64,000 nucleotides of DNA, taken from Agrococcus beijingensis. GTDB taxonomy: Bacteria > Actinomycetota > Actinomycetes > Actinomycetales > Microbacteriaceae. The notes under the pieces were generated by a model that saw only the letters and a program-made list of their open reading frames with translations, had not been told where the DNA came from and did no database searches. The stretch spans positions 1,407,778 to 1,471,777 of the forward strand of contig NZ_CP132360.1 of NCBI RefSeq assembly GCF_030758955.1, written 5' to 3'. Shown one piece after another: positions 31,601 to 41,291 of this stretch (the stretch's first letter is position 1; every line of letters begins with the position of its first letter). The position numbers and the translations under genes were made by a program.

Positions 31601-31621
31601 AAACCCCCGGAGGTCCGGGGG
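31601..31621. terminator. Bidirectional terminator next to attL
   Basis: ACCCCCGGA-GG-TCCGGGGGT hairpin, with an A-run on its left. It ends the lipoprotein transcript and, before integration, presumably ended the tRNA-Val(GAC) transcript from the other side. Confidence 0.7.
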
Positions 31622-31625
31622 TCCT

Positions 31626-31649
31626 GTGGTGGGCGATACTGGGATCGAA
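31626..31649. repeat. attL core of the integrated element
   Basis: 24 bases identical to 41216-41239, where they form the 3' end of tRNA-Val(GAC) (CCA tail, 3' acceptor strand and T arm). The bases to the right (from 31650) do not continue the tRNA, so this is a partial copy, not a tRNA gene. Offset between copies is 9,590 bp, the element length. Confidence 0.93.
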
Positions 31650-31780
31650 TCGGTATTTGCGCTACTGGGCAGACTGGTCGCGGAGCGCGTGAAGCACCCG
31701 GTTTTGCCGCGTTCTACTGCGGTTCCTGCCGTCGTGCGGTAGTGTCACTGTTGTACCCAAGTGGACAGCAGTAGACACGA

Positions 31781-31801
31781 GATATTGCACGGTATTGCAC
31801 G
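31781..31801. repeat. Tandem arm-type sites, left end
   Basis: Two adjacent copies, gatattgcacg and ggtattgcacg, 10 bases apart, between attL and the integrase gene. The same tandem pair occurs inside the right end (41150-41171) in the same orientation. Paired short direct repeats near both cores are typical of integrase arm-binding sites. Confidence 0.6.
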
Positions 31802-31813
31802 AACGGAGACACG

Positions 31814-32011
31814 GTGAGCACGCAGCAGCTCGAGCGCAGCACCTACCTGGCAGGCCTGCTCGACGCCCTCCGGCAGCGGATCGCCAACGGCAATCGCAGC
31901 GCCGTCGTGCTCGGCGCGCGCGTCACGATCCTGACCGTGGCCCGCTCCGGCGTCCGCGTCCGGTTCCCTGACGGCCACATCGAGCGCGCCCACCCCGAGG
32001 ACGTGCGTTGA
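31814..32011 (+). CDS. Small protein upstream of the integrase
   Basis: 65 residues, GTG start. Helical N-terminus (QLERSTYLAGLLDALRQRI) followed by a short beta-rich part ending in FPDGHIERAHPEDVR. The stop overlaps the integrase start (TTGA), so the two are co-translated. No known family; it may be an integrase partner or a directionality protein, which is inference from position only. Confidence 0.7.
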   Translation: MSTQQLERSTYLAGLLDALRQRIANGNRSAVVLGARVTILTVARSGVRVRFPDGHIERAHPEDVR

Positions 32012-33168
32012 GCGTCCGCAAGCGCAAGCAGCGCGAGTCGTGGGGAGCCGTCCGCAAGCTCCCCAGCGGCCGCTACCAGGCGTCCTACACCGGCCCTGAC
32101 GGCAACCGCTACGCGGCCCCCTCGACGTTCGACGGCATGACCGACGCGCGCGGCTGGCTCGCCCGCAAGCAGATCGAAGTGCTCGACGGCGAATGGCAGG
32201 CGCACACCGCCGCCGAGCCGTCGCGCTCCCGGCCCTCGACGACGACGCTCGGCGCATACGGCCGCGAGTGGGTCGAGACACGCACCAACCGCAACGGCGA
32301 ACCGCTGCGCGACCGCACCCGCGTCGAGTACCTGCGCCTGCTCGCCACCGCCCTCGAGCCTCTGGCCGACCTCCGCATGAGCGCGCTGACGCCCGACATG
32401 ATCCGGGCCTGGTACTCCGGCATGGTGAAGTCGGGCCGCAAGACGCTGGCAGCCCGCGCTTACGGGCTCCTCAAGTCAATCCTCTCCACCGCCGTAACGG
32501 ACGGGCGCATCAAGTCCAACCCCTGCATGATCCGAGGCGCGCAGAACGCGACGACGGGCCGCAAGGTGGAACCGCCGACCGCGACCGAGTTGGCGAAGAT
32601 CACCGCTGCGATGCCCGAGCGGCTGCAGGCCGCGGTGCTACTCGCCGCGTGGGTCGGCGCACGGTACGGGGAGCTGACCGAGCTGCGCCGCAAGGACGTG
32701 ACCATGATCGACGACGCGGCCGGCGCTGTCGTGCTCGTGAGCATCGCGCGCGCGGTCACCCATGTCACCGGCGAGGGATACATAGTGGGTATGCCCAAGT
32801 CCGCCGCTGGCGTGCGCGTCGTGCCCGTACCGCCCAACATCGCCCCGGCGCTCACGCGGCATCTTGAGCAGCACGTCGCACACTCTCCCGACGCTCTGTT
32901 GTTCCCCGCCGCTGACGGCGTGAGCCATCTGCCGCAGTCGTCGCTTGTGAAGCACTACTACCCCGCACGCCAGGCCGCTGGACGCCCTGATATGCCGTGG
33001 CACGCACTCCGGCACTTCGGAGCAACGCGGGCCGCTCAAGCGGGCGCGACGCTCAAGGAGTTGCAGGCGCGTCTCGGGCACTCCACCGTCTCAGCGGCGA
33101 TGCGCTATCAGCACACCGCGGGACGAGACTTCGACCTCGCCAGACGTATGGCGTTGCTCGACACCTGA
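32008..33168 (+). CDS. Tyrosine-type site-specific integrase
   Basis: 386 residues. N-terminal AP2-like arm-binding region (WGAVRKLPSGRYQASYTGPDG), SAM-like core-binding domain (about 78-180), and the catalytic domain with Arg219 (GARYGEL), His332/Arg335 (WHALRH), His358 (LGHS) and Tyr367. All catalytic residues are present. TTG start overlapping the previous gene. It presumably recombines the 24-bp att sequence in tRNA-Val. Confidence 0.96.
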   Translation: MSVRKRKQRESWGAVRKLPSGRYQASYTGPDGNRYAAPSTFDGMTDARGWLARKQIEVLDGEWQAHTAAEPSRSRPSTTTLGAYGREWVETRTNRNGEPLRDRTRVEYLRLLATALEPLADLRMSALTPDMIRAWYSGMVKSGRKTLAARAYGLLKSILSTAVTDGRIKSNPCMIRGAQNATTGRKVEPPTATELAKITAAMPERLQAAVLLAAWVGARYGELTELRRKDVTMIDDAAGAVVLVSIARAVTHVTGEGYIVGMPKSAAGVRVVPVPPNIAPALTRHLEQHVAHSPDALLFPAADGVSHLPQSSLVKHYYPARQAAGRPDMPWHALRHFGATRAAQAGATLKELQARLGHSTVSAAMRYQHTAGRDFDLARRMALLDT

Positions 33169-33247
33169 GCCCTCAACCGAGGACGCCCCCGCGAGTGCAA
33201 CGAAACACTCACGAGGGCTAGGCCGGACTAACGAAAGGATCACGGCC

Positions 33248-33592
33248 ATGAACAATCGTAACGAGCAGGTCGCAATGGAGTGCCAGCGCATCGCAGCGGG
33301 AGTCCGCTCTTGCTTGGGCGGCTGGTACTTCACCAACGCCGGCGCTCTCCGCGACATCCTCGAGGTGTCTCCGGGTCGCGCGCGCGCTCTCTACATGGGC
33401 CGCGCCGACTACAACCTGCGAGAGCTGGCCCTAGTGTCGGCGTTCTTCGGAGTGAAGCCGGTGGAGTGGATCGCTCCCCCGAGCGGTCGCGACTATCCGC
33501 GCGCCGAGTCGTGCCACTCTGCCAACCGCGCCGAGGTGCACGCGCGCGCATGGGATCGCGTGATGACAGCGAGAGAGACGACAGCCGCCTAG
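33248..33592 (+). CDS. Small putative DNA-binding regulator of the element
   Basis: 114 residues, ATG with AAAGGA upstream. The middle (about 28-75: NAGALRDILEVSPGRARALYMGRADYN, then LALVSAFFGVKP) looks like a Cro/C1-type helix-turn-helix. Its position between the integrase and the operator-like repeats fits the element's repressor, but binding is not shown. Confidence 0.6.
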   Translation: MNNRNEQVAMECQRIAAGVRSCLGGWYFTNAGALRDILEVSPGRARALYMGRADYNLRELALVSAFFGVKPVEWIAPPSGRDYPRAESCHSANRAEVHARAWDRVMTARETTAA

Positions 33593-33642
33593 CGACTGTG
33601 CGACCGGCCGCGCGAGTCACCGCAGCGGATTCGCGCGGCCTG

Positions 33643-33672
33643 GTTGACAGATGCTCACTTCGGCGAGACGAT
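33643..33672 (+). promoter_or_regulatory. Promoter/operator repeat R1 (type A)
   Basis: GTTGACAGATGCTCAC, with -35 TTGACA at 33644-33649, 17 bases, then a -10-like GACGAT at 33667-33672. Confidence 0.55.
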
Positions 33673-33720
33673 GGGGCGCCTCCCACTCTTGTGCCCTCAG
33701 CCTGAGCTGACTGGCCAGAA

Positions 33721-33751
33721 GTTGACAGATGCTCACGTCTCGTGCGACCAT
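33721..33751 (+). promoter_or_regulatory. Promoter/operator repeat R2 (type A)
   Basis: GTTGACAGATGCTCAC again, -35 at 33722-33727, 18 bases, then GACCAT at 33746-33751. About 34 of 40 positions match R3. Confidence 0.55.
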
Positions 33752-33934
33752 GGACTCGTGGCGTTGAGCTGCGCCCCGACCGCGTCGGACATCGCGTTCA
33801 CCGCGGAGGGCAGAACCGCCAACTGGCGGTTTGGAGCGCAACCGAGGAAGTCATCGACGCGCATGAGGGGCACGAGACGGCCAGACGCGAATCGACGTCA
33901 CCCGCGCCAACCTGCGAGACAGTCGCTCCCATGA

Positions 33935-33965
33935 GTTGACAGATTCTCACCTCTTGTGCGATCAT
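33935..33965 (+). promoter_or_regulatory. Promoter/operator repeat R3 (type A)
   Basis: GTTGACAGATTCTCAC, -35 at 33936-33941, 18 bases, then GATCAT at 33960-33965. Confidence 0.55.
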
Positions 33966-34023
33966 GGAACCATGCTCACGAGCCGCGCCCTGGCTCGGAC
34001 GCTCGGGACATTCGCCCCCACGA

Positions 34024-34054
34024 GTTGACAAGCGCCGATCAGTTGAGTTATTCT
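34024..34054 (+). promoter_or_regulatory. Promoter/operator repeat R4 (type B)
   Basis: GTTGACAAGCGCCG, -35 at 34025-34030, 18 bases, then a good -10 TATTCT at 34049-34054. A transcript would start near 34061, just before a strong hairpin. Confidence 0.6.
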
Positions 34055-34073
34055 CGCTTTACGCGCTAGAACT

Positions 34074-34103
34074 ATGCCCCGCCCCTGCTGCAGGACGGGG
34101 CAT
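34074..34103 (+). other. RNA hairpin after R4
   Basis: ATGCCCCG pairs with CGGGGCAT and an inner CCTG-CTG-CAGG continues the helix. No U-run, so it is a structured 5' region or weak terminator. Confidence 0.5.
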
Positions 34104-34134
34104 CGCTGATTCTGCGGGCCACCCGCGGACAGCA

Positions 34135-34165
34135 GTTGACAAGCGCCGCCACGGCGTGCAAAGAT
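34135..34165 (+). promoter_or_regulatory. Promoter/operator repeat R5 (type B)
   Basis: GTTGACAAGCGCCG, -35 at 34136-34141, 18 bases, then AAAGAT at 34160-34165. A transcript would begin near 34172. Confidence 0.6.
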
Positions 34166-34171
34166 GAGATG

Positions 34172-34230
34172 CGCTCAATAACCATGCCCTGAGCCAGACA
34201 GTACCCCCGAGCTAGACGCCGGGGGTTTTT
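34172..34230 (+). ncRNA. Candidate small RNA between R5 and its terminator
   Basis: About 59 nt from the predicted start of R5 to the U-run of the first terminator. It holds no ORF with a ribosome site. Predicted only from promoter and terminator spacing; read-through to the second terminator would give about 160 nt. Confidence 0.35.
34204..34230 (+). terminator. Rho-independent terminator 1
   Basis: CCCCCG...CGGGGG stem followed by TTTTT (34226-34230). Confidence 0.8.
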
Positions 34231-34301
34231 CTACGCCCTGAGCCGGCCATGCGCCGCGCCATGACGCGCCCCTAGACCACTCGCCCCCGCGGCGAGTCAA
34301 G

Positions 34302-34333
34302 GCCCGAACGCTTCCCGCGTCCGGGCTTTTTTT
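34302..34333 (+). terminator. Rho-independent terminator 2
   Basis: GCCCGAACGC pairs with GCGTCCGGGC (one mismatch), then seven T (34327-34333). The strongest terminator in the element; it isolates the control region from the downstream genes. Confidence 0.85.
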
Positions 34334-34539
34334 GTGCCCGCTTCCGGGCAGGCACGACCCGCGCTAAGCGGCCAACCGCACGACGACGCACGCCCCGAAG
34401 TGGAACCGGGACACGTCGCCGCGCACCAACAGCCACCAGTGAGGTGGCGCTCTTGTACGCCCGTCCAACGGGCTCCATCACGGACACAAGTTTGCGCCCC
34501 TCACGGCGGAGCTGTGTCCGTTTCCGAAAGGGGAACGCG

Positions 34540-34737
34540 ATGAACACCACTGCCGAAACCTGGCCGACGATCCGAAGCGCAGCCGTGCAGTACGGGATGA
34601 GCGAAAAGACGATCCGGCGACGCATCACAGACGGGACGCTCGACGCTCGACGATTCGGGCCGCGCCTCATCCGCATCAACCCGGCAAGCCTCGAGCGCTG
34701 GGGCAGCGCGCTGCAGTACGTCGGCGGTGAGGCATGA
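34540..34737 (+). CDS. Excisionase-like helix-turn-helix protein
   Basis: 65 residues, ATG preceded by AAAGGGG. PTIRSAAVQYGMSEKTIRRRITDGTLDARRFGPRLIRI is the MerR-like winged helix of excisionases (helix_turn_helix_17 type). Its start opens the chain of genes with 4-bp overlaps that runs to 37764. Expected to direct excision or to regulate the chain. Confidence 0.8.
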   Translation: MNTTAETWPTIRSAAVQYGMSEKTIRRRITDGTLDARRFGPRLIRINPASLERWGSALQYVGGEA

Positions 34738-35177
34738 CTCATCACGAAATGGGGAACGGCCCCAAGCCGTCAAACTCTGGGGCCGCTCACAAGATCACGC
34801 CCGACCAGTCTACCGCCCGTCGAAACGAGCACGCGACTCGCCTACGGGAAGTCGACGACACCCTCGAGGCCGTTTGGTCGGGGCTCGTGACGGGCACTCT
34901 CCGCCTAGATCAGCTCCGCCACATGTCGCCCCACGCGGCAGCGATCTACCTGGCCGGCTTTGACGCCGGTATCGCGGCACAGGCGGAGCGCGTCAAGCAA
35001 GCCGAACACGACAGCGATCGTTTTTTCATCCGGGCGATGCACCCCGCAGAGCGGGCCGCGGAGATTGAGCGACGACTCGACTCCGCGCTGGATCAGATGC
35101 CAGACGCCATCGCACCCCACTCCCCCGACTACTTCGAGCGGGCGCTCTCCGGCGTCCTGAACGGCGGCACAGCATGA
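34734..35177 (+). CDS. Unknown element protein before the ATPase
   Basis: 147 residues, ATGA overlap with the excisionase-like gene and with the ATPase gene. Polar N-terminus (1-30), then mostly helix with charged repeats (EVDDTLEAVWSGLVTGTLRLDQL, ERAAEIERRLDSALDQM). No family recognised. Coupling to the ATPase suggests a role in replication. Confidence 0.75.
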   Translation: MTHHEMGNGPKPSNSGAAHKITPDQSTARRNEHATRLREVDDTLEAVWSGLVTGTLRLDQLRHMSPHAAAIYLAGFDAGIAAQAERVKQAEHDSDRFFIRAMHPAERAAEIERRLDSALDQMPDAIAPHSPDYFERALSGVLNGGTA

Positions 35178-36475
35178 CCACGACCGTCTACGATCCGACC
35201 GCCCTCTACGGCGACGAAACAGCCGGCAACTATGAGGTCGAAGTAGCGCAAGAGCTGTACCGCATGAACGTGCGCGCAGACGCCCGCAAACGGCACCAGG
35301 AAGCCAACCGCGAGGCCGTCGCACTCCCACAGCCCCGCACACTCACCGCATTCCTCAGCGAGCCAGACAGCGACCCGGAATGGATCATCGACGGGCTACT
35401 CGCCACGGGCGGAAACGTCGTGCTCGCGGCCCCCTATAAGGCCGGCAAGTCGACGATGCGAGACAACCTCGTCGCGGCGCTCGCGGACGGCAGCATGTTC
35501 CTCGGCCAGCACCAAGCGCGGCAGCGGCGCGTGACGATCATCGACAACGAGCTCGACGAGCGCACCATGCGGCGATGGATGCGACAGCACAGCATCACCA
35601 ACGCGGACTCGGTGACCGTCGTGCCGCTCCGCGGTGCAGTGTCGAGCTTCGACCTGCTCGACCCGACAACACGCACGCAGTGGGCCGATGCGCTGCGCGG
35701 ATGCGACGTGCTCATCTTCGACTGCCTGCGCCCCGTGCTCGACGCGCTCGGCCTCGACGAGCACAAGGACGCTGGCCGATTCCTCGTCGCATTCGACGCG
35801 CTCAAGCTCGAGGCGGGCATCTCCGAGGGCGTCGTCATTCATCACATGGGGCACAACGGCGAGCGCGCTCGAGGCGACTCCCGCATCCTCGACTGGCCGG
35901 ATGCAACGTGGAAGATCGTGCGCGAGAACAGCGACGACCCTGCATCGCCGCGCTACTTCTCCGCGTTCGGCCGCGACGTGGACGTGCCCGAGACGCGCCT
36001 CAACTGGGACGAGGCCGCTCGGCAGCTGACGCTCGGGCTCGGCAACCGGCAGGAAGCGAAGTCGTCGGCGCTCGTGCCCGACGTGCTCGCATTCCTTGCC
36101 GATCAGTCTGCGCCGGTATCCAAGCGGACGATTGAGGATGCGCTGACCGAGCAAGGCCACTACCGCGACCCGATCCGGGCCGCAATCAAGTCGGCTGTGC
36201 AGTCGGGGCAGGTGTCGACAGTGGAAGGCCCACGGCGCGCGATTCTCCACAGCCTGAGCGAGACAACCGACCGAGTGCGCGGGAGTGCGCGGGAGTTCGC
36301 GGCGCGCACTGAGATTGAGTGCGCGAGTGCGCCTATAGGGCGCGCGCGCACTCACTCGCCCTCGGGGGAAGGAATCAGTGCGCGGCCCGCGCACTCACTC
36401 ACCGACCCCGGCTACTGCCCGAACTGCGGCATGACCGGCAAGCACACCCGCTCGTGCAAGGCGGTGACGGCATGA
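35174..36475 (+). CDS. RepA-like AAA ATPase (hexameric-helicase family) with C-terminal zinc knuckle
   Basis: 433 residues. RecA-fold core of the AAA_25/RepA type: Walker A APYKAGKST at about 86-94, Walker B CDVLIFDCLRP at 177-187, and HHMGH at 223-227. It is followed by a winged-helix-like region (VPDVLAFLADQSAPVSKRTIEDALTEQG, about 295-325), a low-complexity linker (about 365-410) and a Cys3 knuckle (CPNCGMTGKHTRSC). Proteins of this kind act as replication helicases or initiators of phages and plasmids. The linker region of the gene carries the GAGTGCGCG repeat cluster. ATGA overlaps at both ends. Confidence 0.88.
   Translation: MTTTVYDPTALYGDETAGNYEVEVAQELYRMNVRADARKRHQEANREAVALPQPRTLTAFLSEPDSDPEWIIDGLLATGGNVVLAAPYKAGKSTMRDNLVAALADGSMFLGQHQARQRRVTIIDNELDERTMRRWMRQHSITNADSVTVVPLRGAVSSFDLLDPTTRTQWADALRGCDVLIFDCLRPVLDALGLDEHKDAGRFLVAFDALKLEAGISEGVVIHHMGHNGERARGDSRILDWPDATWKIVRENSDDPASPRYFSAFGRDVDVPETRLNWDEAARQLTLGLGNRQEAKSSALVPDVLAFLADQSAPVSKRTIEDALTEQGHYRDPIRAAIKSAVQSGQVSTVEGPRRAILHSLSETTDRVRGSAREFAARTEIECASAPIGRARTHSPSGEGISARPAHSLTDPGYCPNCGMTGKHTRSCKAVTA
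36273..36396. repeat. Iteron-like cluster, candidate replication origin
   Basis: Nine copies of the 9-mer GAGTGCGCG within 124 bp. Direct: 36273, 36283, 36293 (1 mismatch), 36317, 36325 (1 mismatch), 36376 (1 mismatch). Inverted: 36303 (1 mismatch), 36345, 36388. The first four are spaced exactly 10 bp. A GCCTATAGGGC dyad lies near the centre. The copies fall in different frames, so they are not the product of a repeated peptide. Confidence 0.65.
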
Positions 36476-36663
36476 ACGGCGCATCGTTCGGGCTCAGCCC
36501 TCGCCCCCGCTTCGACGACTACACCGAGTCCCGCATCCCAGGCGGCTGTGACGACTGCCACGCCTACCAGCGGCTCATCCGAGTCGACGACGGGCTCTAC
36601 ACGCTCCGCATCTACCACGACGACACCTGCCCGACACTCGCCATGAAACGGGGCCGAGCATGA
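36472..36663 (+). CDS. Small Cys/His protein 1
   Basis: 63 residues, ATGA overlap with the ATPase gene. GGCDDCHAYQR plus a later DDTC suggest a zinc-binding site. No family recognised. Confidence 0.7.
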   Translation: MNGASFGLSPRPRFDDYTESRIPGGCDDCHAYQRLIRVDDGLYTLRIYHDDTCPTLAMKRGRA

Positions 36664-36929
36664 CCGAGTGGGACGCCTGCCGATGCAGAAAGGGCCACGC
36701 GACCGCTCGAGGGTTCGCGCGCTGCAAGGTGCGCGGGCTCGCGTGGATCACGGGCCGCGGCGACTGGGCGCTCGTCGCGTGGTGCGGCAACCCGACGATC
36801 ACGCTCTGGCCTACCGAGACCGAGGCAGCAGACCGCGGCTCAGTGCTCGCCGCCGCCCGTTGCGGACGCGCCTGCCGTGGCGCTCACCAGATCATCCATA
36901 TCAACCTCAACCGAGAGGCATACGCGTGA
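36660..36929 (+). CDS. Small Cys-rich protein 2
   Basis: 89 residues, ATGA overlap. Three Cys groups: ACRCRKGH, RCKVRG and RCGRACRGAH. Small and basic, possibly nucleic-acid binding. Function unknown. Confidence 0.7.
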   Translation: MTEWDACRCRKGHATARGFARCKVRGLAWITGRGDWALVAWCGNPTITLWPTETEAADRGSVLAAARCGRACRGAHQIIHINLNREAYA

Positions 36930-37300
36930 AGCTCATCACGACGCACCGATGCACCGACCCGCACGACTCGGCAGCGGACATGCTCGCCTGCATCTACCCG
37001 CGCGCCCGACACATCGACGGGGCCGGCGACTACGCCGTGCTCAACCACTGCGGACGCGGGCAAGCGATCACCCTGCACGCCACCGAGGACGCGGCAGAAG
37101 ACGCGCTAGACCGGCTCGACCGCAACGGATGCGGCAACGCCTGCGAAAGCAACCACGCGAGCGCGTCAGTGCTCTGGCAAGGCGGCGGCCCCGACTGGCA
37201 AGGCATCGCCCGCGAATGGGAACGCGAAGCGCACGACCACCAGACCGAGGCAATCGCGCTGCGAGCGCAGGTTGCCCTACTCACCAAGGAGAAAGCATGA
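36926..37300 (+). CDS. Small Cys-rich protein 3
   Basis: 124 residues, GTG start in a GTGA overlap. Cys/His residues at HRCTDPHD, LACIY, NHCGRG and GCGNACESNH, and a C-terminal helix (EREAHDHQTEAIALRAQVALLTKEK) that could be a short coiled coil. Unknown function. Confidence 0.7.
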   Translation: MKLITTHRCTDPHDSAADMLACIYPRARHIDGAGDYAVLNHCGRGQAITLHATEDAAEDALDRLDRNGCGNACESNHASASVLWQGGGPDWQGIAREWEREAHDHQTEAIALRAQVALLTKEKA

Positions 37301-37764
37301 TCGCCCCCGACGTTCGCGCCCGAGAGCAGGCGCTCCGATCGTTCGACAACCTCACCGCATCCGGCGCAGTCAACGTGAACCGCCCCAACCCTCCCCGCTG
37401 GTTCGACCAGTGGCTCGACGACGTGGCCGACTGGCGCAACGGCACCCCGTCCGAACGGCGCGCATTGGCGCTCATCGCGCTCGAGCGGGAGTGGATCGCG
37501 AAAGCATCCGCGCCAGCACAGCAGCCCGCCGAGCAGGCCGAGGAAACCGAGCCTGACGAGCAGCCCGCCGTCGACCCGACAGCCGCCCCGGACACGCTCG
37601 ACGACCTCTGCACCCGCGTCCGACCCGGCACCAGCTACGTCGCCTGCGCAGGCGGATGCGGACTCCACACGCGCGGCTCCCGCCCCTCAGCCCGACGCTG
37701 CAAGCCCTGCAGCCGGCCGAAGCGAGCACCCGCGCGCACCGACGACACCCTCAACCCCCTCTAA
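37297..37764 (+). CDS. Element protein with C-terminal zinc ribbon
   Basis: 155 residues, ATGA overlap. Helical N-terminus (about 1-70), acidic Pro/Glu/Ala linker, then VACAGGCGLHTRG...RRCKPCSRPKRA, a CxxxC...CxxC ribbon with basic tail. It ends the chain of 4-bp overlaps. Function unknown. Confidence 0.7.
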   Translation: MIAPDVRAREQALRSFDNLTASGAVNVNRPNPPRWFDQWLDDVADWRNGTPSERRALALIALEREWIAKASAPAQQPAEQAEETEPDEQPAVDPTAAPDTLDDLCTRVRPGTSYVACAGGCGLHTRGSRPSARRCKPCSRPKRAPARTDDTLNPL

Positions 37765-37779
37765 CCGAGAGCAGCAGCC

Positions 37780-37968
37780 ATGAGCATCCGAGACGAGTTC
37801 CAAGCCTGGATCGACGGGGACATTCCCGAAACGTCCGACCAGGCCGAGCAGCCGCAGGTTCTGCCCTTTGCCCCCCGCGCCGATTTCTCGCAAGGCGCGC
37901 GCGGCGGCGGCTTCCCATCCTCACCCGCCGAGCAGTTCGCTGACCTGCTCCGCGGCACCCGATTCTGA
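37780..37968 (+). CDS. Small acidic element protein
   Basis: 62 residues, ATG, weak GAGAG site upstream. Begins MSIRDEFQAWIDGDIP and ends in a helix (SPAEQFADLLRGTRF). No family recognised. Confidence 0.6.
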   Translation: MSIRDEFQAWIDGDIPETSDQAEQPQVLPFAPRADFSQGARGGGFPSSPAEQFADLLRGTRF

Positions 37969-37985
37969 ACCCAAGGAGAAACACC

Positions 37986-38819
37986 ATGCAGACCCAGACC
38001 AGCACCAACCACTTCCAGGCACCCGTCGTCATCCAGGCGACCCAGCACGACTACATCGCACGCGCCTACCGGCTCGCAGGACTCCCCGCACCCGACTCGC
38101 GCCTCGAGGTCGACACCCTCATCCACGCCGAGCCCGGAGTCGACACGACCGTCCGCGATCTCGTCGCAGCCGCACCCGACGCGAAGAACCCCGCCCAGTT
38201 CCTCAAGGGCGCACTCGACAAGCTGCAGCGCGCTCAGGCCGCCGACGCGCTCCGAGGCGCATGGGACGGCGCGAAGCATCGGCACGCGATCGAGACGATG
38301 CCGCAGTCCGTCGACACCGCAGCAGCCGACCTCGCCCCCGCATTCGACAGTCTCGTGCAGCAGCTCAAGGATGCGGCAGCCAAGCTCGACCACGACCGAC
38401 CCTTCGACGCGGAGACGGCACTCGCCAACGACGCCGGCGCAGCACTCACCACCGCCCGCACCGGCCTCGCCAACCTCGGCACCTACCTCGGCATCCACGA
38501 GATGATGCCGCCCGCACCCGACGCGCCCGCCGCGCTCTCCCGAGTGCTCGGCATCGTCGCCCTCCCCGACTTCGAGACAGAGCGGGTACAGCGCAGCCTC
38601 TCGGCGTCAGACGTGACGATCCTCAACCCCCGCGAGAGCGAAGGCGCACGTACTGCACGCACCCTCGCCACCGCCCTCGAGCGCGACCAGGACTACGCGC
38701 TGCTCGCCATCGCACGCGGCGACTACCCCGGCGTCACCCTCAAGCTCGCAGGCGCAACCGAACTCCGAGCACGCCGCCACCTCGCCACCCGAGCACAGCA
38801 GCGCGTGACCGCCGACTGA
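37986..38819 (+). CDS. Unknown 277-residue element protein
   Basis: 277 residues, ATG with a strong AAGGAG. Almost entirely helical and Ala-rich, without membrane segments or Cys. No known domain. It has its own good ribosome site and is followed by a strong hairpin, so it may be made in quantity. Position before the TerS-like gene would suit a packaging or capsid-size protein, but nothing in the sequence shows that. Confidence 0.75.
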   Translation: MQTQTSTNHFQAPVVIQATQHDYIARAYRLAGLPAPDSRLEVDTLIHAEPGVDTTVRDLVAAAPDAKNPAQFLKGALDKLQRAQAADALRGAWDGAKHRHAIETMPQSVDTAAADLAPAFDSLVQQLKDAAAKLDHDRPFDAETALANDAGAALTTARTGLANLGTYLGIHEMMPPAPDAPAALSRVLGIVALPDFETERVQRSLSASDVTILNPRESEGARTARTLATALERDQDYALLAIARGDYPGVTLKLAGATELRARRHLATRAQQRVTAD

Positions 38820-38830
38820 ACCACCCCACC

Positions 38831-38870
38831 GATGCCGCCCGCTCAGCCCTCACCGGCAGCGGGCGGCATC
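38831..38870 (+). terminator. Hairpin after the 277-residue gene
   Basis: GATGCCGCCCGCT pairs perfectly with AGCGGGCGGCATC (13 bp). No U-run follows. Likely terminator or processing signal. Confidence 0.6.
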
Positions 38871-38991
38871 GCCACGTCAAGGGGGTGGGAGCAAGCCCCT
38901 AGAGCAACCCGGCGGGCAGCCTCCTGGGCGGTGATCCGCCCCTCCCCGGGCTCCGAAACGTTTGCCCCTTGATCTGATTGGAGGCCTCGAC

Positions 38992-39336
38992 ATGACTGAG
39001 GCGAAACGGAAGCGCCCGACTGGGCTTAATGCGGCGGGCCGCGCCCTCTGGGATGGCAATATCGACGAGTTCGACTGGGCCGTGCACGAGGTGGCGCTGC
39101 TCGAAGAGGCGTGCCGGGTGCGGGATCGGATCGTCGAGCTCGACGCGGCGGTGAAGGGTGACGGGCTGATGATTCCGTCCTCTCAGGGCAGCCGTGTGCA
39201 TCCGGCTGTGGCTGAGGCTCGGCAGCAGCGGCTGGCCCTCGCGCGTCTGCTCGTGTCGCTCGGCATCCCCGCCGACGACGACGGACTGCCGACTGTGCGG
39301 GGCGTGCGGGGCGTGTACCGAGTCGGGGGTCGCTGA
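38992..39336 (+). CDS. Terminase small subunit-like protein
   Basis: 114 residues, ATG with GGAGG at seven bases. GLNAAGRALWDGNIDEFDWA, then helices with VALLEEACRVRDRIVELDAAV, then SSQGSRVHPAVAEARQQRLALARLLVSLGIP. This pattern of helices followed by the G..hPhh.E.R....L..LL..L..P block is that of P27/Terminase_4-type small terminase subunits of actinophages. No large subunit follows, as in SaPI/PICI satellites that redirect a helper phage's terminase. Confidence 0.7.
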   Translation: MTEAKRKRPTGLNAAGRALWDGNIDEFDWAVHEVALLEEACRVRDRIVELDAAVKGDGLMIPSSQGSRVHPAVAEARQQRLALARLLVSLGIPADDDGLPTVRGVRGVYRVGGR

Positions 39337-39662
39337 TGGTGCGGCGGAGGCGTCCGAGCGTCGACAGCGAGGATCAGCGGCTGCTGCGCTTCGATCCTGT
39401 CGAGTGGCCTGGCTCGGCGGCCGATGCGCTCGAGCTGTGGCTGTCGTCGTCCCGCGATCACTGGCAGTCCCGCCCGTACCCGTTCCGGTTCGTGATGGGC
39501 CGACGTGACGGGCGGACTGCTTGGCGTCCGATGGTCGTGCAGGAGATGTTGGCGCGCGTGCGTGCAGCGCGCAGCACTGTGGCCGGAGAGTCGTTCGACG
39601 AGGCCGCGTACCTGCTGCGGCTCGCGAAGCACGCAGGCTACGACGAGGTGCGTCCCCGCTAG
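39336..39662 (+). CDS. Unknown protein coupled to the TerS-like gene
   Basis: 108 residues; the start shares one base with the TerS stop (TGATG). Arg-rich ends, a middle with EWPGSAADALELWLSSSRDHWQSRPYPF. No family recognised. Its 3' end overlaps the convergent gene at 39659 by 4 bases. Confidence 0.65.
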   Translation: MVRRRRPSVDSEDQRLLRFDPVEWPGSAADALELWLSSSRDHWQSRPYPFRFVMGRRDGRTAWRPMVVQEMLARVRAARSTVAGESFDEAAYLLRLAKHAGYDEVRPR

Positions 39663-40183
39663 GCGGAAGCGGCGGCCGAGACGTCGCGAGGCGATCGAGC
39701 GCGATCGTCAACAAACGGCGCGATGTGATCCGCCAGTGCTCGTGCCGCGCCTGTACTGACATTCAGGGGAAGGTCGATGCTCAGGCCCTCATAGTGCAGC
39801 GTGACGGCAGCCGTTTGGCTTGTCAGTCCGCTGTAGTTGTCCAGACGAGTGCGCCGCAACTCCAAGCCCTTGACTTCGCCTCGCGGGTAGACAGTGCCAG
39901 TCGGCCATGACCCGTCGAGTTCGCCGGTGACGTACGCGATCCGATCGTCGGTGAAGGCGACCATGCTGAACGTCGAGTCCGGCGCAGATGCCTGACCCGG
40001 CTCCACGGACGTCCGCGCCTCTGCGTAGATCGGTTCCTCGTCGCCGAGCAAGACCGCCACCAACTCAAGCGCCTTCTCTCTGCTGTGCTGCGCCTCGCGA
40101 GTCCCCCAATCTGCGTCCCAGTTCGAGTCGAGCCGGTTGAGCACGCGCGCGACGTTGGTTCGCGACGAGTTGATTTGAGTCAT
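39659..40183 (-). CDS. Unknown protein of the element's minus-strand module
   Basis: 174 residues from ATG at 40183. Helical N-terminus, then a beta-rich part (about 75-150: FSMVAFTDDRIAYVTGELDG, YPRGEVKGLELRRT, AAVTLHYEGLSIDLPL) that looks like a bacterial PH-like fold. Opposite in direction to the replication and packaging genes and less extreme in GC. Possible cargo gene; function unknown. Confidence 0.7.
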   Translation of the reverse strand: MTQINSSRTNVARVLNRLDSNWDADWGTREAQHSREKALELVAVLLGDEEPIYAEARTSVEPGQASAPDSTFSMVAFTDDRIAYVTGELDGSWPTGTVYPRGEVKGLELRRTRLDNYSGLTSQTAAVTLHYEGLSIDLPLNVSTGAARALADHIAPFVDDRARSPRDVSAAASA

Positions 40184-40226
40184 GCTCGACACCGTACGCG
40201 TCGACGACAGCGCGCGCTACGGGCAC

Positions 40227-40574
40227 TCACGCGCGCGCCGCGTGCTTTCTTGGGCGTGCTGGCCGTCCTGGCTCCGGGCATCCAGGCGGCGGCTTCTGCG
40301 GCACGAGCGGCCTTGATGGCGGCATGTCTCCGCCCGCGAGCGACCGCCCGCTCAGGTGCTCATGGAGCGCGAGCACGCCGTCGTGGGCGTCCTCAAGGCT
40401 TCCCCAGTACCCGATGAGCCGACGTTGGGTGCGGTCGGTGTCTGGCGAGACTGCTCGGTAGTAGGGCTCTCGGTTCGGCCCGAGCGTCAGTAGTCGCACG
40501 ATGGCGAGCGGGCTCCCGTCGAGGGGGTGCAATATGTCCCACTCGCACGGCCTGATCGTCACGCATTCGAACAT
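40227..40574 (-). CDS. Small protein common in actinobacterial mobile DNA
   Basis: 115 residues. About 1-85 reads as a compact domain (IRPCEWDILHPLDGSPLAIVRLLTLG, then RRLIGYWGSLEDAHDGVLALHEHL); the tail is Pro/Arg-rich. Similar short proteins are seen in actinophages from memory. No clear ribosome site before the ATG. Function unknown. Confidence 0.55.
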   Translation of the reverse strand: MFECVTIRPCEWDILHPLDGSPLAIVRLLTLGPNREPYYRAVSPDTDRTQRRLIGYWGSLEDAHDGVLALHEHLSGRSLAGGDMPPSRPLVPQKPPPGCPEPGRPARPRKHAARA

Positions 40575-40771
40575 ACATTCGAGCGTCAGCGACGCGCCAG
40601 CGACGCGCCACTAGTCGTCGCGGCTCCGCCTAATCTGGTGAGAACTACTCAGGTATGCCTCTAGGACGCTCTCAGCGGCCCCCTGCCGCGTTTTCTGGCC
40701 GTCGGTGTGTTCCTGCCCGGGCAGCGCCGTTCGCGCCGCTCTGAGCGCGCTAAGCGGAATGGTGGCGAGTG

Positions 40772-40909
40772 TCATTGAGGGTTGCGTTGCGCGTTCAGTT
40801 GCTCAGCGATAGTGCGCAGCTCGCGTGCAGCGCTGTGAGCGTCGGCCCCGGCGTCTAGCTCGTCTGCGATCGCTGTCAGGCGTTCGATCGGATCGGGTGA
40901 GGCTTCCAT
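40772..40909 (-). CDS. 45-residue helical protein
   Basis: 45 residues from ATG: MEASPDPIERLTAIADELDA, then ARELRTIAEQLNAQRN. One or two amphipathic helices. It lies 14 bases after the zinc-ribbon gene on the same strand, so the two may form an operon. Short, so confidence is limited. Confidence 0.5.
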   Translation of the reverse strand: MEASPDPIERLTAIADELDAGADAHSAARELRTIAEQLNAQRNPQ

Positions 40910-40923
40910 GCGTGGGAGCCTAG

Positions 40924-41079
40924 CTACCAGCCTCGGATGCCGGGTAGGGCCTCAGTGTCGGGCTTGTCAACATGCGGCGGCCCGTCGTGGACGTAGCCGC
41001 AGGCTCGGCAGCGCTCATCCCAGACGAGTGCGCCGCACCGCTCGCAGCGGTCGTCGAGGTCTTCGAGCGCGTCGGCCAT
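40924..41079 (-). CDS. Small zinc-ribbon protein
   Basis: 51 residues from ATG. CERCGALVWDERCRACGYVH has two CxxC knuckles of a zinc ribbon. Common as a small protein in actinobacterial mobile DNA. It is the first gene of the minus-strand module, next to the right attachment site. Confidence 0.65.
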   Translation of the reverse strand: MADALEDLDDRCERCGALVWDERCRACGYVHDGPPHVDKPDTEALPGIRGW

Positions 41080-41149
41080 GCGTGGAACCGTAGCGCGACA
41101 CGCCCGGACGATGCACCCGCGCTCGACACAAGTTCAGCGTGCGCTCCCC

Positions 41150-41171
41150 GGTATTGCACGGGTATTGCACG
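41150..41171. repeat. Tandem arm-type sites, right end
   Basis: Two adjacent exact copies of GGTATTGCACG (41150-41160, 41161-41171), matching the pair at 31781-31801. They lie 45 bases from the attR core. Confidence 0.6.
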
Positions 41172-41191
41172 CAGTCCCCCGGACATGCGAA

Positions 41192-41215
41192 AACCCCCGG
41201 ATTTCCGGGGGTTTC
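41192..41215 (-). terminator. Element-borne terminator for the tRNA-Cys/Val transcript
   Basis: ACCCCCGGA-TT-TCCGGGGGT hairpin followed on the minus strand by TTTT. It lies inside the element, left of the core, at the same distance as the chromosomal hairpin beside attL, so integration keeps a terminator behind the tRNA. Confidence 0.8.
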
Positions 41216-41239
41216 GTGGTGGGCGATACTGGGATCGAA
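41216..41239. repeat. attR core inside tRNA-Val(GAC)
   Basis: 24 bases identical to 31626-31649. They cover the encoded CCA, the 3' acceptor strand and the T arm, so the tRNA gene stays intact after integration. Confidence 0.93.
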
Positions 41240-41291
41240 CCAGTGACCTCTTCCGTGTCAGGGAAGCGCGCTACCGCTGCGCCAATCGCCC
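41217..41291 (-). tRNA. tRNA-Val (GAC)
   Basis: Cloverleaf with acceptor GGGCGAT/ATCGCCC, D stem GCGC/GCGC, anticodon loop CTGACAC (anticodon GAC), T arm ACTGG-TTCGATC-CCAGT, and encoded CCA. Host gene of the integrated element. Confidence 0.96.

Follow-up and report, generated by a model that had tools for sequence, protein, structure and literature searches.

Staphylococcus aureus pathogenicity islands (SaPIs) and other Gram-positive phage-inducible chromosomal islands (PICIs) with terS carry, in keeping with PMC6092414, an integrase, a small regulator, a replication gene and a late gene for the terminase small subunit (TerS), contain no structural genes and lie at an attachment (att) site in the chromosome. 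Among actinobacteria, the available part of PMC10654092 reports candidate PICIs of Mycobacterium with tyrosine integrases at tRNA genes, some of which hold a helicase and a terminase, and the available part of PMC10690885 mentions predicted PICIs of Actinomycetota. We analyzed a window of 64,000 nucleotides from the single-contig, 2.89-Mb genome of Agrococcus beijingensis (NZ_CP132360.1, positions 1,407,778 to 1,471,777), in which the stretch 31626–41239 had been suggested, in an original prediction made from the sequence alone, to be a phage satellite integrated in tRNA-Val(GAC). Our analysis supports that interpretation: the element shares the above arrangement of genes, with a putative regulator, and is very probably an integrated PICI-like phage satellite, based on sister elements at the same tRNA, congeners that lack the integrase there, a TerS clade free of an adjacent terminase large subunit (TerL) and a conserved site near terS. 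Below, G and L numbers are our handles for genomes and loci, respectively.

The element is bounded by an exact 24-bp direct repeat, GTGGTGGGCGATACTGGGATCGAA, whose copies at 31626–31649 (attL core, host-side junction) and 41216–41239 (attR core, 3' end of the tRNA gene) are offset by 9,590 bp, as the original prediction had stated. This repeat is nested in a 54-nt repeat of 87% identity (31601–31654 and 41191–41244), which also holds a terminator-like hairpin, read by eye, just inside attR (41191–41215) and common to both sister elements. ARAGORN placed the attachment gene, an intact tRNA-Val(gac) (RF00005), at 41217–41291 on the minus strand, with the 24-bp repeat beginning one base outside it, and found no tRNA at the left repeat copy at 31.6 kb. 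No other exact direct repeat of the window with a spacing of 5–15 kb is as long as the 24-bp one, the next measuring 20, 19 and 19 bp; because these occur at similar spacing in a GC-rich window, repeat length alone is no proof of an element, and what puts the repeat beyond chance is that two sister elements are arranged likewise. The GC content is 67.9% in the element and 72% in its flanks. An integrase and delimited att sites in the host chromosome are both present, as in PICIs.

Pfam and PHROGs scans covered 16 of the 19 assigned open reading frames (ORFs), all but the 54-, 45- and 51-aa ORFs at 40611–41079. Every assigned ORF is open, and no broken genes were seen among them. The tyrosine integrase (32008–33168, plus strand) matched PF00589 (5e-14) and phrog_1 (2e-53), and the residues that we take to be its catalytic set (R219, K264, H332, R335, H358 and Y367) are invariant in an alignment of the three sister integrases, in line with the original prediction. 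TerS (38992–39336, plus strand), likewise predicted, was recognized by phrog_1496 (7e-18) and, together with the conserved adjoining site, is the predicted redirector of packaging expected of a PICI. The predicted replication gene of the element (35174–36475, plus strand) had been called a RepA-like ATPase; it matched AAA_25 (7e-23), and the label AAA_25 (DnaB/RepA-type) helicase fits it better. The excisionase-like gene, a 65-aa helix-turn-helix (HTH) protein of the AlpA/excisionase type (34540–34737, plus strand), was assigned by phrog_66 (5.7e-5), with HTH_17 (1.6e-5) under the Pfam cut-off. The small DNA-binding protein of the original prediction, a putative repressor of 114 aa in the Stl/CI position (33248–33592, plus strand), had no family match itself, although its A. 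baldri homologue gave a weak match to HTH_26/BetR (0.014). The Stl, Pri, Cpm and Ppi families were not named among the Pfam and PHROG matches of the 16 scanned ORFs. As predicted, structural, lysis and transfer families were absent from the significant matches of these ORFs; in particular, there was no match to TerL, portal, capsid or tail proteins, the genes expected of a prophage.

An integrative plasmid, an integrative and mobilizable element or an actinomycete integrative element, conjugative or immobile, with terS as cargo, is another conceivable explanation. AAA_25/RepA proteins also serve plasmids, and the helicase resembles one encoded on a 15.9-kb Rhodococcus plasmid. However, no relaxase, TraB/FtsK-type or mating gene was matched in Pfam at E<=0.1 among the 16 ORFs, terS is present in all three sister elements, and the Rhodococcus plasmid itself has an integrase, TerL and a tape-measure gene, on account of which it looks phage- or satellite-derived. 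We consider this explanation very improbable. The plasmid in question, pDJL3 (L178, NZ_CP025962.1), is circular, encodes a helicase of 49% identity and has no annotated capsid; it is possibly an episomal satellite or a phage-plasmid.

The original prediction proposed a search of related genomes, and within the genus this search found both filled and vacant sites. A tRNA-Val-Cys-Gly query matched 24 of 24 genus genomes searched, and a second att-like copy was located 8–10 kb away in three of them: the genome of the window, G119 and G200, i.e., Agrococcus baldri NBRC 103055 (locus L159, element on L055, row B of the TerS tree). In G208 a 32-nt att-like match was found only 136 bp from the tRNA, near the contig start. 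An integrase of the element's kind (E<=1e-30) was detected in four of the 24 genomes, comprising the three elements and a distant partial match at tRNA-Gly in G049; the tRNA-Val site of the other 21 had none. Surroundings were compared for 12 of these 21 genomes. In nine, the left neighbour (the gene at 28.5–30.5 kb, read by eye as thrS) was on the same piece, ~0.04–3.5 kb from the tRNA, a span that makes the neighbour–tRNA interval variable among element-free genomes; the remaining three pieces had no match to this gene. The element-side flank of the tRNA was 97% identical between the window and A. baldri over 133 bp (tRNA included) and 94% identical between G119 and A. baldri over 125 bp, whereas the host-side flanks of the three elements are unlike one another, which indicates that the element carries its own tRNA end and terminator-like hairpin. 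The flanks of the vacant sites in G049 and G199 are partly similar to this element-side flank, which may thus derive from a host of the genus.

The two sister elements measure 9,526 and 8,371 bp from att to att. By tblastn, their identities to the element of the window are 79% and 72% for the integrase, 37% in both for the putative repressor, 91% and 52% for AlpA, 69% and 57% for core gene g5, and 58% and 55% for TerS; g7, g8, g9 and g10 are also shared. The common order of the three elements is int-repressor-alpA-g5-g7-g8-g10-terS, and PHROG recognized TerS in all three. In G119 the identity of the helicase is 23%; in A. baldri tblastn did not match it at all, and a different AAA protein is encoded at this position. 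The replication gene is thus a swapped module. Furthermore, the protein before terS (277, 276 and 250 aa) keeps its position and is highly divergent in sequence. Markers for TerL, portal, capsid and tape measure had no match in these three elements. Close to the tRNA, the G119 element also encodes a GNAT acetyltransferase. In A. baldri a repetitive tail-fibre-like protein is encoded between g8 and g10 (L055:7545-8201), with tblastn matches in L111, L122 and L124 (27–45%) and in L150 (38%). One of these loci, L122 (G199 C4:426001-446000), belongs to the same genus and contains relatives of the repressor (67%), g8 (77%), g10 (36%) and g12 (26%); it has no TerS match, and one of its ORFs resembles a serine recombinase by eye.

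In a maximum-likelihood tree of 44 rows, TerS of the window fell into a clade of 19 rows, mostly Micrococcales, none of which is TerL-adjacent (support 93/86). The eight TerL-adjacent rows require three changes on the tree in comparison to 7.6 in shuffles. These data bear on the possibility of a decayed prophage, i.e., a temperate phage at tRNA-Val that was stripped of its structural and lysis genes and left with early genes and terS. Small prophage remnants are common, and complete phages and prophages encode relatives of TerS as well as of the helicase. Against such decay stand three elements of 8.4–9.6 kb in three species with the same reduced gene set and differing helicases, the intact state of the assigned ORFs, the lack of a TerL-adjacent TerS in the clade, and delimited relatives of 8.0–15.9 kb at many tRNA/tmRNA sites. 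We regard a decayed prophage as improbable.

GC-rich words common to the clade were noticed upstream of terS. An expectation-maximization motif search of the 160 bp before terS returned CGAAACGATCGGCCCT with a score of 127.7, in comparison to 43–49 in eight shuffled sets. In most clade members, 24–73 bp separate the site from the downstream start of terS; in the element of the window it occupies 38954–38969 (core CGAAACGTTTGCCCCT) within the stretch 38908–38972 (plus strand). When each member was left out of the profile in turn, its site ranked first in the whole locus in 14 of 17 cases (second in L110 and L111, seventh in L112); the fair count is 13 of 16, because the A. baldri site had been chosen by a scan. 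Members with a site score at least 9.3, while 14 contrast rows (six TerL-adjacent phages or prophages, two Mycolicibacterium aichiense isolates and six satellite-like loci outside the clade) score at most 1.4, the phage records among them holding just 77–104 bp before terS. We propose that this conserved site is the cos/pac site of the satellites. Alternatively, the element would be a satellite and the site a late promoter or operator that answers an activator of the helper. Its position before terS is one where a promoter could sit. The conserved stretch, however, extends over ~55–65 bp and its GC-rich blocks do not resemble sigma-70 hexamers; in A. baldri it follows terS in inverted orientation; and four phage genomes, including two ~11-kb M. 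aichiense isolates, begin 77–104 bp before terS, the place expected for a cos site. A regulatory role appears rather unlikely.

Alignment searches gave g5 hits in 13 of 398 genomes of the bacterial family and TerS hits in 16 of 299, and outside the genus the two genes are at most 4 kb apart in four genomes (G253, G258, G161 and G228). When a single genome from each of 84,980 species was searched (contigs of at least 3 kb), 26 TerS loci were obtained. They belong to Arthrobacter, Herbiconiux, Frigoribacterium, Cryobacterium, Cellulomonas, Frondihabitans, Demequina, Microcella, mycobacteria and further groups, with one in a record labelled Sphaerisporangium; some, including L150 and L165, are truncated at contig ends. 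A TerL marker adjoins TerS in three of the 26 (Nocardia and two Streptomyces). A genome-wide search with PHROG 9 matched at those three loci; judging by contig numbers and distances, as far as these can tell, its other 11 matches are at different places. Among the 20 loci L109–L128, TerL and portal markers matched only L119 and L120, which are ordinary prophages in which the genes for TerL, portal and capsid come after terS. Direct repeats of 17–50 bp anchored at tRNA or tmRNA genes delimit eight of 10 and 11 of 15 loci in two test sets; two elements (L111/L148 and L113/L149) were counted in both. Delimiting repeats were absent from L110/L156, L112/L154, L151 and L163, the first three with serine-type integrases by eye; L123, L124 and L125 are delimited yet have no TerS.

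Several relatives encode a structural protein. PHROGs scans of 20 chosen proteins, which leave room for further structural genes, identified tape-measure proteins in L113, L115, L118 and L121 (phrog_1533, E at most 1.2e-89), in L158 and L110 and, weakly, in L155 (2e-5), with tblastn matches in L112, L116, L150, L154, L173, L174 and L175. Major capsid proteins were identified in L124, L125 and L165, the last of which also has TerS. The structural gene is between the repeats in the delimited loci L113, L115, L158, L124, L125, L165 and L155 (17-bp repeat), whereas L118, L121, L110, L112 and L116 are not delimited. No TerL marker match accompanies the tape-measure genes at L113:10755-13373, L115:10409-13192 and L158:7841-9829 or the capsid genes in the 8–9 kb elements at L124:12235-13077, L125:5693-6862 and L165:8837-9694. 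The tape measure of L113 is closest, among the matches listed, to those of Arthrobacter phages (43–53% over 59–71% of its length), and the tape-measure frame of L110 (12700-15449) appears as two ORFs of 162 and 744 aa. The capsid class is tied to the element of the window by early genes only in L124 (g5 and helicase) and L125 (g5, helicase and g8), and through TerS in L165.

The original prediction held that capsid genes in intact relatives would point to a decayed plasmid or prophage. Some relatives do carry capsid or tape-measure genes; the delimited ones, however, are 8–16 kb long without a match to TerL or portal markers, which is why we read them as satellite variants rather than intact prophages from which the element of the window would have decayed. 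The capsid genes of L124, L125 and L165 also raise the question of a capsid-forming PICI (cf-PICI), a satellite with its own heads that steals only tails. For the element of the window this is the least probable of the alternatives, given that its 16 scanned ORFs have no match to capsid, portal, protease or TerL. It is about as likely as not that an actinobacterial satellite family exists, spread over Micrococcales and perhaps wider, with a shared early core, the packaging site of the TerS clade and a late module that is swapped between TerS alone, TerS with a tape-measure protein and sometimes a fibre-like gene, and an own major capsid protein.

Several observations weigh against the interpretation as a PICI-like satellite with its own packaging site. 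The clade support of 93 is slightly below the usual mark of 95. Of its 19 members, L176 is without a good site and that of L151 is doubtful, three of the 17 left-out sites were not top-ranked, and the A. baldri site (L055:10091-10106) was found by scanning, inverted behind terS. The absence of the motif from phages was tested on a short stretch, the contrast phages having just 78–89 bp before terS in their records, and no convincing helper emerged when the site was sought outside satellites. The genes for the repressor and the excisionase are weakly assigned. Third positions account for a moderate share of the codon differences (0.39–0.64), and the sequences have diverged too far for selection to be tested firmly. 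Each of the three host genomes has weak PHROG 2 matches (5e-5 to 6e-4), in our view to other ATPases. Finally, helper, excision and particles are predictions from the sequence.

Integration at tRNA-Val, reuse of this site by the sisters, a modular replication gene and an own TerS are supported by the comparison of the three elements. No PHROG 9 TerL was detected in the three host genomes bearing tRNA-Val elements, and an infecting helper is accordingly more likely than a resident phage. Based on the comparison, the island integrates at the 3' end of tRNA-Val(GAC) and keeps the tRNA whole. It may be silenced by the putative repressor until an infecting helper phage lifts the repression, after which the AlpA-type protein and the integrase would excise a circle and the AAA helicase would start its replication. 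The TerS of the island would then bind the site by terS and redirect TerL, portal and head of the helper to island DNA; the head of the helper may in addition be adapted by g12 and by the small genes that precede terS.

The remaining features, on the plus strand unless stated otherwise, are mostly small genes. A 65-aa ORF (31814–32011), also scanned with Pfam and PHROGs, overlaps the int start. Between the putative repressor gene and alpA there is a noncoding block of ~500 nt (33643–34165) with five GTTGACA repeats, absent from the sister elements. Three of the five have GTTGACANNNNCTC in common (0.08 expected), two are promoter-like by scan with 18-nt spacing, and the block could be a promoter/operator array. 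A conserved leader follows upstream of alpA (34185–34539), with two terminator-like hairpins seen by eye and missed by the scan; it belongs to an 828-nt block that is 86% identical to the G119 element, in comparison to 75% for the int gene, and is a possible origin, attenuator or operator. Core genes g5 (34734–35177, 147 aa), g7 (36472–36663, 63 aa) and g8 (36660–36929, 89 aa, Cys/Trp-rich) were detected by tblastn in the sisters, as was g10 (37297–37764, 155 aa), while g9 (36926–37300, 124 aa) matches the same places there as g8. The scanned ORF g11 (37780–37968, 62 aa) is followed directly before terS by g12 (37986–38819), a 277-aa helical protein with a sub-threshold WXG100 match (2.4e-4) and a predicted fold that gave no firm match, for which we conjecture a role in morphogenesis; other ORFs received weak, unrelated family names. 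Directly 3' of terS, g14 (39336–39662, 108 aa, MVRRRR...) has counterparts of 25–29% identity in the same position in L111, L112 and L113. On the minus strand are the accessory genes g15 (39659–40192, 177 aa; 45% homologue in the A. baldri element) and g16 (40227–40574, 115 aa; 61% homologue in the G119 element), and the three small accessory ORFs at 40611–41079, the last of which is Cys-rich and has a 53% homologue in the G119 element.

The element and its two sisters constitute a tractable family, and the predicted packaging site is testable with one purified protein. Helpers can be searched for with the TerS lineage and the site together. The tape-measure or capsid gene of the relatives allows one to ask what a satellite gains from remodelling of tail or head; if the family is real, a satellite of the tape-measure class would determine how long the tail of the stolen particle is, or of what type, remodelling the helper's tail rather than its head. 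The exchangeable late modules are, in our opinion, the part most worth following. We found no description of such elements in Microbacteriaceae, or of tape-measure-carrying satellites, in the literature searched, whose scope mostly excluded subscription papers and preprints.

Among known systems, the ~11-kb Mycolicibacterium aichiense 'phages' Alyssa1 and WillG (GenBank) share with the element the same broad TerS family, an integrase and the lack of an annotated TerL or portal; they differ in a serine integrase, their own capsid, adaptor/stopper and tape-measure genes, another sequence before terS and a TerS outside the 19-row clade. Eleven M. aichiense records (including L023 and L180, OR387110.1 and OR387121.1) match a prophage TerS; the four of them that were sized are 10.9–11.1 kb long, and the two whose annotation was compared hold TerS, capsid and tape measure with no annotated TerL or portal; the ~11-kb records look like isolated satellites. 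The phage-inducible chromosomal minimalist islands (PICMIs) are, in the available part of PMC10803314, small satellites said not to encode capsid-remodelling genes, a likeness by description only and not by sequence, and they are found in Vibrionaceae. The candidates of PMC10654092 were, according to its available part, defined by integration machinery and a major capsid gene, with SatelliteFinder also run; since that main criterion calls for a capsid gene, elements with TerS only would escape it, and actinobacterial surveys that seek an integrase and a capsid would miss such satellites. The Streptomyces satellites MulchRoom and MiniFlayer are actinobacterial as well, and the accessible part of PMC10690885 describes their helper dependence, which for our element is deduced from its genes; they encode TerS, TerL, portal, capsid and scaffold, whereas the element of the window encodes TerS only. 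In comparison to SaPIs and Gram-positive PICIs, no relative of Stl, Pri or Cpm was named by the family searches, and int, the putative repressor gene and alpA all have one direction. Furthermore, the element has a putative AlpA-type protein, as in Gram-negative PICIs.

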